This document shows, piece by piece, positions 5,081-32,215 of a stretch of DNA of 32,215 nucleotides. The stretch is from positions 1 to 32,215 of the forward strand of contig JAHQVX010000106.1 in NCBI GenBank assembly GCA_019634125.1, written 5' to 3'. Position 1 is the stretch's first letter. Each line of letters starts with the position of its first letter. The translations under genes were made by a program, and so were the position numbers. The notes under the pieces are model-generated. The model did no database searches. It was not told the origin of the DNA and saw nothing but the letters and a program-made list of their open reading frames with translations. The DNA is from Saprospiraceae bacterium. GTDB lineage: Bacteria > Bacteroidota > Bacteroidia > Chitinophagales > JAHQVX01.

Positions 5081-5985
5081 GAATAGCTGTACTTTCTAGA
5101 AATAAGACCTTATACAGTACTCGACGTATTGTACAAAGCGCGATAAAGCGCGGACATCAGGTTTTGGTTATTGATCCGTTGAAATGTAATCTGGTGATGG
5201 AGAAAAACCATCCGCAAGTGTATTATGGCGATCATCGGTTAGATAATATCGATGCCATTATCCCGCGAATCGGGACTTCTATTACCTTTTATGGATCAGC
5301 GGTAATTCGTCAGTTCGAAATGATGAATGTGTTTAGTACGGTAGACTCGAACGCATTACTGCGTTCGAGAGACAAGCTGAGATCTATCCAACTTTTGTCT
5401 CGAGAAGGCATTGGTTTTCCAAAAACCGTATTCACGAACTACTCCCAACGTATCGATGATATTATTGAAGGAGTAGGCGGGACGCCTTTAATTATCAAGT
5501 CGTTGGAAGGCACGCAGGGGCTGGGAGTCATGTTGTTAGAGTCGAAAAAGGCAGCTGTATCAGTGATTCAGGCGTTTAATAGCATTAAGGCCAGAACAAT
5601 GGTTCAGGAATTTATCAAGGAAGCCAAGGGCGCGGATATTCGAGCCTTTATTGTCGATGGGAAAATTGTTGGCGCAATGAAACGTCAAGGCTTGCCAGGT
5701 GATTTCCGAAGTAATTTACACCGTGGCGGCACCGCAGAGCTAATTAAGTTGAACCGACGCGAATCGAGTTCGGCATTGAAAGCCGCCAAAACCATGGGGT
5801 TAGATGTTTGTGGCGTAGACTTACTTCAATCGAAGCGAGGTCCGTTAGTATTGGAAGTCAACTCTTCACCGGGTTTGGAAGGCATTGAAACCGCTACCCA
5901 AGAAGACATAGCTGGGGCTATTATTAAGTTTGTCGAGAAGAATGCAGCGTCTAAACCAAAACGTAAAAAGCGATCAAAAGGCTAG
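5077..5985 (+). CDS. rimK: RimK-type glutamate ligase (ATP-grasp)
   Basis: A 302-aa ATP-grasp ligase. The family adds glutamate residues to the C-terminus of ribosomal protein S6 or makes poly-alpha-glutamate. Visible: the N-terminal [18 protein letters not shown], the ATP-grasp lysine region [16 protein letters not shown], the [16 protein letters not shown] metal and nucleotide segment, [11 protein letters not shown], and the C-terminal [12 protein letters not shown] Mg-binding motif. The tail after about 290 is Lys/Arg-rich. It overlaps the upstream rimB-like gene by 4 bp, and the AstE-like gene begins 2 bp after its stop, so the three are an operon. A 10-bp-arm perfect hairpin sits at 5346-5369. 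The exact substrate (S6 or another protein or peptide) is not shown. Confidence 0.94.
5346..5369. repeat. Intragenic perfect inverted repeat, 10-bp arms
   Basis: Arm CTCGAACGCA (5346-5355), loop TTAC, exact complement 5360-5369, within rimK. Confidence 0.88.
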
Positions 5986-5986
5986 A

Positions 5987-6922
5987 ATGAAGATCAATAA
6001 AGAAAACATCGCGCCGGGCGAAGAGAAAACGATTCACTTAGAAGTGGCGAAGCTACCTACGCGAACAGCTATTGATATTCCGGTTACTGTGGCTCGTTCG
6101 GAAACGCCTGGGCCTACTTTGCTGGTTATGGGTGGATTGCATGGCGATGAGATTAATGGCATTGAGATTATTCGTCGGGTATTAGACAACGACTTGCATA
6201 TCCCGAAGCAAGGGACGGTGATAGCAATTCCTATCATTAATATTTTTGGCTTTATTCATTTTTCGCGGGAAGTGCCTGATGGTAAAGATGTAAACCGATC
6301 ATTTCCAGGAGCAAAGAATGGCTCCCTTGCAAGCAAGGTCGCCTACACGCTGATGAAAGAGATTGTGCCGCACATTGATTATTGCGTGGACTTTCACACT
6401 GGTGGAGATCAACGCACGAACTATCCACAAATCCGGACTGTATTAGATGATTCGGAAAATGCTCAGCTTGCTGAGCATTTTCACGCCCCAGTAACCATCA
6501 ATTCTAAGCTGATTGAGAAAAGCTTTCGTTGGGCAGCCAGTGCAAAAGGGGCTAAAATGTTAGTCTATGAAGGTGGGGAAAGTCTTCGCTTCGACGAATT
6601 CGCCATTCAAGAAGGCATTAACGGTTTACTCAGGTTAATGAAAGCACTTGGTATGCGGGATGATGCACCAGCACCTGTACAACCCACAACCATTATTCAG
6701 TCTTCAAAGTGGCTGAGAGCCTCGGCCTCCGGTTTATGGATCCCAAAAATTAACAGCGGCGATGCTGTTATTGATGGCCAAAAATTAGGCTACATCGCCA
6801 GCCCATACGGCGATTTTAGAGAACCCATTCACGCAAAAAAAGGAGGCGTAGTGTTCGGCTTGAATAATACACCCATCGTCAATCGCGGCGATGCTTTAGT
6901 GCATCTTGGCTTTCCAGGTTAA
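5987..6922 (+). CDS. Succinylglutamate desuccinylase/aspartoacylase family hydrolase
   Basis: A 311-aa zinc hydrolase of the AstE/AspA group (M14-like fold). The zinc ligands are visible: H52 and E55 in GGLHGDE and H137 in VDFHTGG. The DVNRSFPG motif is at 101-108 and the likely catalytic glutamate at 195 in VYEGGE. The C-terminal third is the usual beta domain. Start ATG 5987 lies 2 bp after the rimK stop; an ORF start at 5930 would overlap rimK by 56 bp and is rejected. The family removes acyl groups from amino acids. Because it sits with rimB and rimK, its substrate may be a glutamylated product rather than succinylglutamate; that is inference. The 3' end shares TTAA with the convergent lipoprotein gene. 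Confidence 0.92.
   Translation: MKINKENIAPGEEKTIHLEVAKLPTRTAIDIPVTVARSETPGPTLLVMGGLHGDEINGIEIIRRVLDNDLHIPKQGTVIAIPIINIFGFIHFSREVPDGKDVNRSFPGAKNGSLASKVAYTLMKEIVPHIDYCVDFHTGGDQRTNYPQIRTVLDDSENAQLAEHFHAPVTINSKLIEKSFRWAASAKGAKMLVYEGGESLRFDEFAIQEGINGLLRLMKALGMRDDAPAPVQPTTIIQSSKWLRASASGLWIPKINSGDAVIDGQKLGYIASPYGDFREPIHAKKGGVVFGLNNTPIVNRGDALVHLGFPG
6455..6482. repeat. Intragenic perfect inverted repeat, 13-bp arms
   Basis: Arm GAAAATGCTCAGC (6455-6467), two-base TT gap, exact complement 6470-6482, inside the AstE-like gene (residues about 157-166). It is the longest intragenic perfect hairpin seen in the window. Confidence 0.92.
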
Positions 6923-30201: not shown

Positions 30202-30624
30202 TTATTCTGAAGTGGTGTAGACCACAATGAGTTCATTTTCGTAGAAGACCTGTTGTACTTCTGTTTCTTGCGGCGCTTCAAATAGGTTGACTGCTTGTTG
30301 GAGCAATTGTTCTTTTTCGGCTGGACTTTGTTTTTTATTGCTTGTGCCGAGGAACACAGATACTAATAAAATCAATGAAGCTGCTACTGGAAGGATATAT
30401 GTTAATCGGAATTTGGGCTGGGCTTTTTTCCGTTGGAAACGAGTCCAAAGGTGTTCATTTATGGCTGCAGGTGGTTGGTTCTGATGAGCGTTCACGAATG
30501 TAGACCACGCTTCCATTCTAGAATCCCTTTGGTGCTCCGCGTTGAATAACTGCTGTTCCTCTTCGGTACTTGTTTTTCCCGCTCGATAATTTTCGAGCAA
30601 TTGCTTATAGTTTTCCGCTTTCAT
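30202..30624 (-). CDS. Putative anti-sigma factor (single-pass membrane protein)
   Basis: A 140-aa protein from ATG 30624 (MKAENYKQLL). A cytoplasmic N-terminal half, including the helical YRAGKTSTEEEQQLFN, is followed by one membrane helix near 82-98 (LPVAASLILLVSVFLG) and a short outer tail. No zinc-binding ZAS motif is visible. It overlaps the sigma gene end by 20 bp and follows it on the same strand, the classic arrangement for an anti-sigma partner. The role is inferred from position and topology. Confidence 0.75.
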   Translation of the reverse strand: MKAENYKQLLENYRAGKTSTEEEQQLFNAEHQRDSRMEAWSTFVNAHQNQPPAAINEHLWTRFQRKKAQPKFRLTYILPVAASLILLVSVFLGTSNKKQSPAEKEQLLQQAVNLFEAPQETEVQQVFYENELIVVYTTSE

Positions 30625-31120
30625 AGTTGTATATTTTTTCAAGTTCTGCGCTCACTTTCTTTCTGGCTCTGGAAAGCAGTACGCGTACATGCTCAATGTT
30701 TAATTGGGTGGCGGCCGCAATTTCTACAAACTCATAACCATCGAGATCGCGCAAAATGAGCACTTCTTTTTGCTGTTCGGGCAGTGTTTTGAGGACTTTT
30801 CGAACCATGGCATTTAAATCCTGCCATTCTAACGTGTTTGGGGCATGATTGCTTTCTATAAGTTGGAGGTGCAACGAGGCATCGTCGAGCTCAGGTTTTC
30901 GTTTCCGCAATTGGTCAATACAATAATTGCGTGTGGTTTGGAAGACCAGTGCCGGGATATTTGGGTGTTTGGCTACTTGATGCCGTTTGCCCCAAAGTTT
31001 CAACATGATTTCTTGGATGGCATCTTCAGCACTGGCTGTATTTCCCAACATCCGTGAGACCATAGGATACAAGCGGTCGGCCTGTGAAAATACCTTGTGT
31101 TTGAAATCAACTTCATTCAT
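30605..31120 (-). CDS. ECF-type sigma-70 family RNA polymerase sigma factor
   Basis: A 171-aa sigma factor. Region 2 covers about 12-80, with DRLYPMVSRMLGNTASAEDAIQEIMLKLW and the -10-recognition helix FQTTRNYCIDQLRKRKPE. Region 4 covers about 105-160, with LKTLPEQQKEVLILRDLDGYEFVEIAAATQLNIEHVRVLLSRARKKV as helix-turn-helix. Regions 1 and 3 are absent, which defines the ECF type. It is followed by a membrane protein (anti-sigma) overlapping by 20 bp and by a plug-repeat secreted protein. It is divergent from the large secreted-protein gene across a 512-bp region; that gene is a candidate target. Confidence 0.95.
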   Translation of the reverse strand: MNEVDFKHKVFSQADRLYPMVSRMLGNTASAEDAIQEIMLKLWGKRHQVAKHPNIPALVFQTTRNYCIDQLRKRKPELDDASLHLQLIESNHAPNTLEWQDLNAMVRKVLKTLPEQQKEVLILRDLDGYEFVEIAAATQLNIEHVRVLLSRARKKVSAELEKIYNYESGKL

Positions 31121-31246
31121 CCTATATTAATAACGAAAAATAGTGCGCCACATAACAGTAAGGAATAATTTTTTTGAATAGAGCCGATTGACTAACGTTT
31201 TTCATAAAACCTATTTAGCTATAAGTGGCTGAATTTTGATAGGATC

Positions 31247-31525
31247 TGTCGGAATTGTGATGGTGGAATGCTCTTGAATGTAGTTGTTTTACAGTTTTAA
31301 TTTCATCTTCTACTTGCTAGAACTAGAAGATGAAATTGGATGAATGGTTTCGTTGAAGAAACCGTAGTCCTCCTTATAGTGTTCCCAGGCACCCAGCCAA
31401 CCTTTGGTTGGCTGGGTGTTCTTAACAAAATCACCAATTAAGGCTTCGAAACCAAAACACAGCCCTATGTCGGAATTGTTATAAATGTCGGATTTTTAAT
31501 AACCAACATGACCGAATAGTTATAA
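31247..31525. repeat. Repeated TGTCGGAATTGT motif, three copies
   Basis: TGTCGGAATTGT occurs exactly at 31247-31258 and 31468-31479. The second copy extends to TGTCGGAATTGTTATAA (31468-31484), which matches TGACCGAATAGTTATAA (31509-31525) at 14 of 17 positions, 41 bp apart. A further TGTCGGA is at 31486-31492. They may be binding sites for a regulator. Confidence 0.6.
31299..31418 (+). ncRNA. Candidate structured RNA element (three successive hairpins)
   Basis: Hairpin 1: arm AATTTCATCTTCTA at 31299-31312 with its exact 14-bp complement at 31324-31337 (11-nt loop). Hairpin 2: GGTTTC/GAAACC, 31346-31363. Hairpin 3: 13-bp perfect GC-rich stem, arm CACCCAGCCAACC at 31390-31402, TTT loop, complement 31406-31418, followed by TTCTT. 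It is a terminator-like end in a region with no upstream gene on the plus strand, so a small RNA or leader is plausible. Transcription is not shown. Confidence 0.45.
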
Positions 31526-31632
31526 CATCTGTCGCCATTCTAACAGCCTTTCCTTTCAAGCTTTATTTGTTTTACAGCGTTGAATTACAAGTGAAATCAA
31601 CACGCAAATTGATAATATTAAAACAAACGGCC

Positions 31633-32215
31633 ATGAAAACAATCCGACTCATTTACCTTTTTATTTTTTTAGGTCTTTTAGCTTTTAGCCACAATGGCTT
31701 TAGTCAAGAAACCTGTGAAGCTACCGCCTCCCAAATTACATTTGAGGACGGCTCAACCGAACTCAGCTTTTGCGCAGGTAATCCAGCCTTGCTCTCCATT
31801 GGAGTAAACGTAGTAACGCCTGGTTTTCCGGAAGAACTCAATGTCATCTCTACCAATGCAAATGGAGATATTTTAGGTCTATTCGTTGACAATCCGAGTG
31901 ATGCAACGGGTTCATTTGCCGGCACCTTTACGCTCCAAGCCATTCACACGACGGAGACAGATTTGTTGGATAATATTGAATTCGGGACGAACATCTCTGA
32001 ATTAGAAGGGTGTTTCGCTTTATCTAACCCGTTAACCTTTACGATTGAAGCCCCAGGTGAAGGCGGTTGTCCAGAGATCAAAATTAATGAATTACTCCCT
32101 GTATCCGGAGATGGAGAAGAACAACTCAGCATCATTGAGTTAACAGGCGCGCCGAACACCGATTTTGTGGCCAACTTAATGACTATAGAGACGCGCAATT
32201 TAGCAGATACAAGCG
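31633..32215 (+). CDS. Secreted multi-domain protein, partial (3' end outside window)
   Basis: The frame opens at ATG 31633 and runs off the right edge (194 codons seen). A signal peptide (MKTIRLIYLFIFLGLLAFSHNGFS) is followed from about 27 by a CEATASQITFEDGS...CAGNPALLSIGV...NGDILGL...ISELEGCFALSNPLTFTIE domain. This belongs to a repeat seen in large secreted Bacteroidota proteins, marked by ILGL and LEGCF-LSNP. A second segment from about 147 (CPEIKINELLPVSGDGEEQLSIIE) resembles a lamin-tail-like start. It is probably a cell-surface or type IX-secreted protein, but the sorting domain, if any, is outside the window. Confidence 0.72.
   Translation, partial: MKTIRLIYLFIFLGLLAFSHNGFSQETCEATASQITFEDGSTELSFCAGNPALLSIGVNVVTPGFPEELNVISTNANGDILGLFVDNPSDATGSFAGTFTLQAIHTTETDLLDNIEFGTNISELEGCFALSNPLTFTIEAPGEGGCPEIKINELLPVSGDGEEQLSIIELTGAPNTDFVANLMTIETRNLADTS

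Follow-up and report, generated by a model that had tools for sequence, protein, structure and literature searches.

A candidate small RNA locus with a probable intrinsic terminator between divergent genes, in a genome rich in perfect hairpins

Small intergenic RNAs with normal terminators are common in bacteria. GibS of Bacteroides thetaiotaomicron is one example, which the relevant parts of its report (PMC7366714) describe as made up of two hairpins in the middle, a linear region and a Rho-independent terminator; the same parts of that report give 27 of 49 such RNAs in this species as strain-specific. For perfect short inverted repeats in DNA, the described mechanism, according to the relevant parts of PMC4060949, PMC8794818 and PMC6649704, is template switching. 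An excess of short inverted repeats was ascribed to quasipalindrome conversion by Ladoukakis and Eyre-Walker in 2008 (as cited in PMC4060949), and the excess in coding sequences as cited there is small but significant, and is for repeats of 6–9 bp.

The intergenic region and its neighbors

The window analyzed here is a whole contig (G000:C96, 32,215 bases) of a 2.2-Mb genome assembly that is 83% complete. The locus lies in the 512 bases that separate the start of an ECF-type sigma factor gene (31120, minus strand) from a secreted-protein ORF whose ATG is at 31633 on the plus strand, and the features of this part of the window are as follows.

30605..31120, minus strand: ECF-type sigma factor gene, 171 aa, matching Pfam Sigma70_r2 and r4 (regions 2 and 4)
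31246..31263, plus strand: direct repeat with TGTCGGAATT, upstream of the hairpins
31299..31337, plus strand: hairpin 1, a 14-bp perfect stem with an 11-nt loop, candidate 5′ stem-loop of the RNA
31338..31370, plus strand: hairpin 2 with flanking pairs; core GGTTTC/GAAACC at 31346–31363
31371..31387, plus strand: linker TCCTTATAGTGTTCCCA, 17 nt, C/U-rich, putative base-pairing region
31390..31418, plus strand: hairpin 3, a 13-bp GC-rich perfect stem with a TTT loop, probable intrinsic terminator by the genome's own pattern
31419..31426, plus strand: tail TTCTTAAC, with 4 T of 8 (1 T of 8 on the opposite side)
31467..31525, plus strand: three more copies of the TGTCGGAATT repeat, with starts 18 and 23 apart, upstream of the secreted-protein ORF
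31633..32214, plus strand: start of the secreted-protein ORF, which runs off the contig; signal peptide recognized by eye

A preliminary description had reported three hairpins of 14, 6 and 13 bp between divergent genes, one of which encodes an ECF sigma factor, and all of this is borne out: the three hairpins are present and above chance, the neighbors are the sigma gene on the minus strand and the secreted-protein ORF on the plus strand, and the Pfam matches confirm the former. The sigma-factor protein has 39 relatives in named genomes, with 34–65% identity and all with Bacteroidota names. The secreted-protein ORF, which the preliminary description called large, has 194 residues visible before the contig ends at position 32215 and matches no Pfam family over 31633–32214; its start resembles a repeated unit in relatives' open frames of about 600–4100 aa, with up to 18 matches in one relative genome. 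The hairpin set sits between the annotated genes, and no ORF explains it. All plus-strand frames in the intergenic stretch are shorter than 50 aa, and none of at least 20 aa lies wholly within it before the terminator; two frames that begin within the sigma gene, of 47 and 23 codons, stop at 31130 and 31168, and a 33-aa frame (31340–31441) crosses the terminator.

The stem of hairpin 1 is formed by 31299–31312 with 31324–31337, with two more pairs inside a C.C mismatch (17-nt arms, 94%). The 6-bp core of hairpin 2 pairs GGTTTC (31346–31351) with GAAACC (31358–31363), is lengthened in the fold to AUGGUUUC/GAAACCGU, and is closed by GGAU (31338–31341) with GUCC (31367–31370); the linker is unpaired in the full fold except for a few pairs around the terminator. 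For the 141 nt from 31290 to 31430 the folding energy is −60.1 kcal/mol on the plus strand (z −7.8) and −54.3 kcal/mol on the minus strand (z −7.9), and since the two are about equal the folding says nothing about the strand. With the terminator left out, 31293–31387 still folds at z −5.7 relative to shuffles. Hairpin 1 is no energetic outlier within its own genome; its region is absent from the 25 most stable of 2024 intergenic 60-nt segments (those with tight hairpins left out) and from the 15 lowest z-scores of 263 noncoding 96-nt segments (step 48). The most stable of the 2024 intergenic segments, at −44.7 kcal/mol, lie at 5256–5327 of stretch L138 (G000:C114). An anti-Shine-Dalgarno mimic, CCTCCTT at 31369–31375, is not relied upon, and its first CC is paired in the fold.

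The expected promoter for a transcript of the hairpins did not emerge from the sequence patterns searched. The sigma-A −7 box TAnnTTTG, a consensus taken from the pertinent part of a Flavobacterium psychrophilum paper (PMC9723704), has no exact occurrence, and five occurrences with at most one mismatch against 5.1 expected; sigma-70-type sites in 30900–32215 are at the chance level (4 against 3.2 expected); and TTTTACAG, located ahead of the hairpins, shows no enrichment in 140 regions upstream of genes (2 sense and 1 antisense occurrences). A duplicated promoter, from the resemblance of 31226–31303 to 31509–31586 at a distance of 283, was also set aside: the resemblance is weakly above chance, the best local score being matched by 19 of 1000 shuffles and the ungapped score by 8 of 200, and TTTTACAG, as just stated, shows no enrichment before genes. 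The three repeat copies at 31467..31525 might form an operator array, an idea to which we attach little weight. As a genome-wide operator TGTCGGAATT was rejected, with counts equal to those of the control (129 and 116 against 108 and 120; 3 against 3), and one of 147 other genomes has its paired form. Another TGTCGGAATT array, with spacing of 18–23, is present elsewhere in the genome (G000:C95:10309-10358) in front of an ORF judged by eye to encode an ECF sigma factor and downstream of a gene with, by eye, a helix-turn-helix at its end.

Hairpin 3 and the terminators of the genome

Hairpin 3 pairs 31390–31402 with 31406–31418, and nine of its 13 pairs are GC. When the window is shuffled 50 times with its dinucleotides preserved, hairpins of at least 10 bp (loop 3–8) occur at 0.28 per window and none reaches 13 bp, and the real window has 13 of them, 10 within ORFs; because it is so rich in hairpins, shuffles are an insufficient control and the genome's own other hairpins are the right comparison. 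We therefore compared perfect hairpins (stem at least 9, loop 3–8) in 13 stretches of the genome totaling 261,573 bases, window included and with ORFs of at least 100 aa counted as genes, in two classes: 20 at unambiguous 3′ ends of genes and 101 inside genes. Stems of at least 12 bp are found in 15 of the 20 gene-end hairpins, and none of the 101 coding hairpins has the 13 bp of hairpin 3. An excess of C over G of at least 5 in the 5′ arm, which is +7 in hairpin 3, is present in 10/20 gene-end but 2/101 coding hairpins. Stem length, base make-up and place thus put hairpin 3 with the terminators rather than with the coding hairpins.

The strand of hairpin 3 was judged from the T content of its tails; the C-rich 5′ arm gives no orientation, because a perfect inverted repeat presents the same 5′ arm on either strand. 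Among the 20 gene-end hairpins, 17 have a tail richer in T on the sense side than on the antisense side, two have equal numbers and one has fewer, and the tails hold 2–7 T of 8, a range that includes the 4 T of 8 in the plus-strand tail of hairpin 3. A generic consensus terminator scan makes no call at hairpin 3, where the tail is TTCTT without a T run. The earlier wording "terminator-like" accordingly fails by the generic scan and stands by the genome's own gene-end hairpins, whose tails are comparable, and we regard hairpin 3 as very probably a plus-strand intrinsic terminator. A terminator very like it is found at G000:C129:1418-1446, about 20 nt past the stop codon of a protein gene, with the stem CCCA-CCAACC / GGTTGG-TGGG.

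The preliminary description had further argued that a terminator where no gene ends points to an unannotated transcript. There are 33 divergent regions (6,701 bases) in the sampled genome, and they contain six terminator-like hairpins, hairpin 3 included. One (L140:15043) begins 6 nt after a tRNA-Met and another (L143:8038) 5 nt after a tRNA-Arg, a minus-strand tRNA-Asn is 119 nt upstream of a third (L142:11848), and the remaining two (L142:4419 and L139:8665) are without a known RNA; tRNA genes thus clearly explain two of the five other hairpins, and perhaps one more. No tRNA is present at the locus itself. The argument is strengthened by the gene-end hairpins and the tRNA cases, and finds no backing in conservation or in the promoter searches.

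The two divergent-region hairpins without a known RNA can be described a little further. At L142:4300-4447 (G000:C95) the terminator-like hairpin is likewise an orphan and follows a folded stretch (z −4.95 with the hairpin included). It precedes by 96 nt an ORF judged by eye to encode another ECF sigma factor; no Rfam family comes near its gathering score there, and the segment is another candidate for a small RNA or leader. At L139:8665-8686 (G000:C37) the hairpin is of 9 bp, its minus-side tail is 8 T of 8, and only short frames end at it. Among the regions searched is also a TPP riboswitch, on the minus strand of L144:3370-3468 (G000:C40).

Perfect tight hairpins inside genes

The sampled coding DNA of this genome contains 96 perfect hairpins with stems of at least 9 bp and loops of 3–4 nt in 238,434 bases, about 24-fold more than the 4.0 expected from synonymous-codon shuffles within genes. 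A sample of relatives' coding DNA, consisting of 37 stretches of 34 other genomes (three masked stretches excluded), has 13 in 587,412 bases against 4.3 in shuffles. The density per 10 kb is 2.7–5.0 in all 13 stretches of this genome and 0–1.1 in the 37 from relatives, and the rate is about 18 times that of the relatives, or one hairpin about every 2.5 kb. Examples inside genes of the window, with stems of 9–12 bp and loops of 3–4 nt, lie at 188–208, 322–344, 492–512, 5346–5369 and 6455–6482, with others in stretches L137–L148.

The excess is confined to short loops and largely to perfect stems. Among perfect repeats of at least 10 bp in 12 further stretches of the genome (229,358 bases), 79 have loops of 3–4 nt and 43 of 0–2 nt, but only one has a loop of 5 nt, five have loops of 6–8 and eight of 9–40; the corresponding numbers in relatives are 9, 5, 1, 6 and 18, from their 20 first stretches (273,312 bases including masked ones, three being wholly masked). 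With the window included, 60 of 92 own hairpins with loops of 3–4 nt lie in coding DNA, counting ORFs of at least 120 aa as genes, and terminators make up part of the total. Perfect 10-bp stems number 60 against 1.25 in shuffles, those with one mismatch 32 against 17.5, and those with two 119 against 139.5; in relatives the values are 4 against 0.75, 23 against 21.5, and 158 against 160. That the excess is mainly in perfect stems suggests a strong perfection of palindromes at the DNA level, a type of mutation already described. Selection for the coding hairpins at the RNA level was rejected, as single G.T and A.C mismatches on the coding strand number three and four and there is no sign of wobble pairing.

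The gene for RecQ illustrates the pattern, with two hairpins in the conserved motifs LPTGGGK and AHCVSQWG, each with 9/9 positions paired here. In relatives the pairing is at most 7/9 in 29/29 loci for LPTGGGK and in 28/29 for AHCVSQWG, these being the best 29 of 57 other genomes with a match, with one locus not yielding the second motif; in that motif 27 of 28 relatives carry I where this genome has V, and the change from I to V adds a pair. It looks as though near-palindromes have been converted to perfect ones and filtered by selection on the protein. Loss of exonuclease VII was considered as a cause and rejected: its large subunit, XseA, was not found in this genome (83% complete), but neither was it found in 59 of 98 others (E ≤ 0.001), and so its loss leaves the difference unexplained. 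The coding hairpins seem unlikely to stem from an assembly artefact, given that reading frames and protein motifs are intact.

We consider the chances about even that an exceptionally active DNA process in this lineage makes near-palindromes into perfect hairpins with 3–4 nt loops genome-wide, in genes largely by synonymous changes; the terminators of the genome, among them hairpin 3, may likewise have arisen or been maintained through it. Perfect short inverted repeats within coding DNA are a likeness to quasipalindrome conversion as described in the cited parts of the literature; the difference is in scale, with an excess of about 24-fold over codon shuffles and loops of 4 nt or less. To our knowledge the restraint of quasipalindrome conversion has been studied mostly with reporter constructs. 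If such a process is at work, the genome would be a natural mutator for quasipalindrome conversion, and if the hairpin excess holds it would matter more than the RNA, as it lets one ask which repair or replication factor curbs the conversion.

For the locus the consequence is twofold. Tight perfect hairpins are common in this genome, even inside genes, so that "three hairpins" is a weaker argument than it appeared; given the coding hairpins, a run of several hairpins counts for less, while the terminator counts for as much as before. Hairpin 3, being 13 bp long and intergenic, is outside the tight perfect coding class (loop 3–4, stem 9–12, in genes), and so is hairpin 1, with its 11-nt loop.

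Readings of the locus and comparison with known systems

Conservation of the hairpins in relatives, which the preliminary description had named as a test, was not found. A structure model built from one distinct sequence, and therefore weak, matches 0 of 147 other genomes of the same order at E ≤ 0.05 (with stricter filters beyond 40 genomes), and a DNA search at E ≤ 0.001 against 148 relatives, none of them from the same family as the source genome, yields in one of them a 33-base piece over 31284–31315 only, which takes in the left arm of hairpin 1 with flanking bases. The DNA search finds no paralogue in the genome itself. The 700 bases upstream of the 39 sigma orthologues contain no comparable hairpin set; eight perfect hairpins of at least 9 bp are present in seven of these loci, the longest being of 13 bp, AT-rich and alone in its region (L068). 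Rfam 15 gives no match above the gathering score in the window, and four matches far below it. Plasmids and phages have no match and viral contigs no exact copy of the hairpin 3 stem, and a mobile origin was dropped. With 27 of 49 of the B. thetaiotaomicron RNAs strain-specific, an absence of homologues is not unusual and does not refute a small RNA.

Several matches of the structure model were followed up and rejected. The full-length match on C129 (38 bits, own genome) turned out to lie at the 3′ end of the protein gene mentioned above, including its terminator. A match upstream of a sigma orthologue (L070, 28 bits) aligns well in the terminator only, with most of hairpins 1 and 2 left out; it has the same strand as the sigma gene, whereas the present locus is on the opposite one, and we do not count it as a homologue. 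The remaining matches (E up to 1) are the window's own arms and five weak ones of 14–24 bits in the same genome (L140, L141 twice, L142 and L147), three of them at gene-end hairpins.

A terminator with no tRNA, Rfam family or ORF ending at it and with a folded part before it is most simply read as the end of a small RNA, and an unannotated RNA of about 125–135 nt that ends near 31424 is the best reading, one that we hold with roughly even confidence. The same balanced judgment applies to the locus as a plus-strand, lineage-specific gene for a small intergenic RNA. The earlier proposal of a small RNA or leader is supported in part, through hairpin 3 as a terminator, and the searches for conservation and for a promoter lend it no support. 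Transcription would start near 31290–31300 on the plus strand, the RNA would fold into hairpins 1 and 2, the short C/U-rich linker would stay largely unpaired, and the RNA would end at the hairpin 3 terminator, near 31419–31424. From this anatomy the linker might base-pair with targets in trans and the 5′ hairpins might protect the RNA; the trans mode of action is considerably more doubtful than the RNA itself.

The terminator could alternatively belong to a leader of the secreted-protein gene, with a transcript that begins before hairpin 1 and hairpin 3 acting as an attenuator that is read through conditionally. The shared strand and the 215 nt from the end of hairpin 3 to the ATG suit this, but neither the minimum-energy nor the centroid fold has an antiterminator pairing, no Rfam leader family is matched and, as a weaker point, the repeats and a second TTGTTTTACAG lie between terminator and gene, where the gene's own promoter could be; we think a leader unlikely. 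About equally unlikely is that the terminator was left behind by a deleted or decayed gene and that hairpin 1 is unrelated to it. The lack of a homologue in the genomes, plasmids and phages searched agrees with such a remnant, as does the weak alignment, over the whole model, of the C129 protein-gene 3′ end with its similar terminator; against it, no ORF of at least 20 aa lies inside the stretch before the terminator, which is directly preceded by hairpins 1 and 2.

Still less probable, in our estimate, is an insulating terminator that stops antisense plus-strand transcription coming from inside the sigma gene or from beyond it before it reaches the secreted-protein gene: its position and orientation fit, but hairpin 1 is left unexplained, and RNA genes go with two or perhaps three of the five other hairpins in divergent regions. 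We give as little credence to the locus having no RNA feature at all, with hairpin 3 a product of the genome's DNA hairpin process and hairpin 1 due to chance or of the same origin. The roughly 18-fold commonness of tight perfect hairpins in the sampled coding DNA relative to relatives speaks for this, but 0/101 coding hairpins reach 13 bp, 2/101 have a C excess of at least 5, and the 11-nt loop of hairpin 1 falls in a class without excess. If the small RNA is real, it would be one more lineage-specific riboregulator beside ECF sigma and secreted-protein genes, and our guess is that it could tie the regulator to surface proteins.

Compared with described systems, the candidate is most like GibS, to judge from the relevant parts of its report, in being intergenic, in its similar length (GibS is 145 nt), and in combining two hairpins with a linear stretch and a Rho-independent terminator. 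GibS as described there differs in having a mapped start, a Northern band and known targets, whereas the candidate is a prediction from sequence, and the 5′ seed of GibS is conserved and single-stranded, whereas the 5′ end of the candidate would be a hairpin. The Rfp sRNAs of F. psychrophilum (e.g. Rfp18, PMC9723704), from a related group, are independent structured transcripts according to the pertinent part of that report; they were found by expression, and Rfp18 is conserved in its genus, and the likeness drawn here is by description only. The nearest comparison is with the genome's own intrinsic terminators, with which hairpin 3 shares the stem length, the C-rich 5′ arm, the TTT loop (9/25) and a short T tail, and from which it differs in that no protein gene or tRNA was found to end before it.
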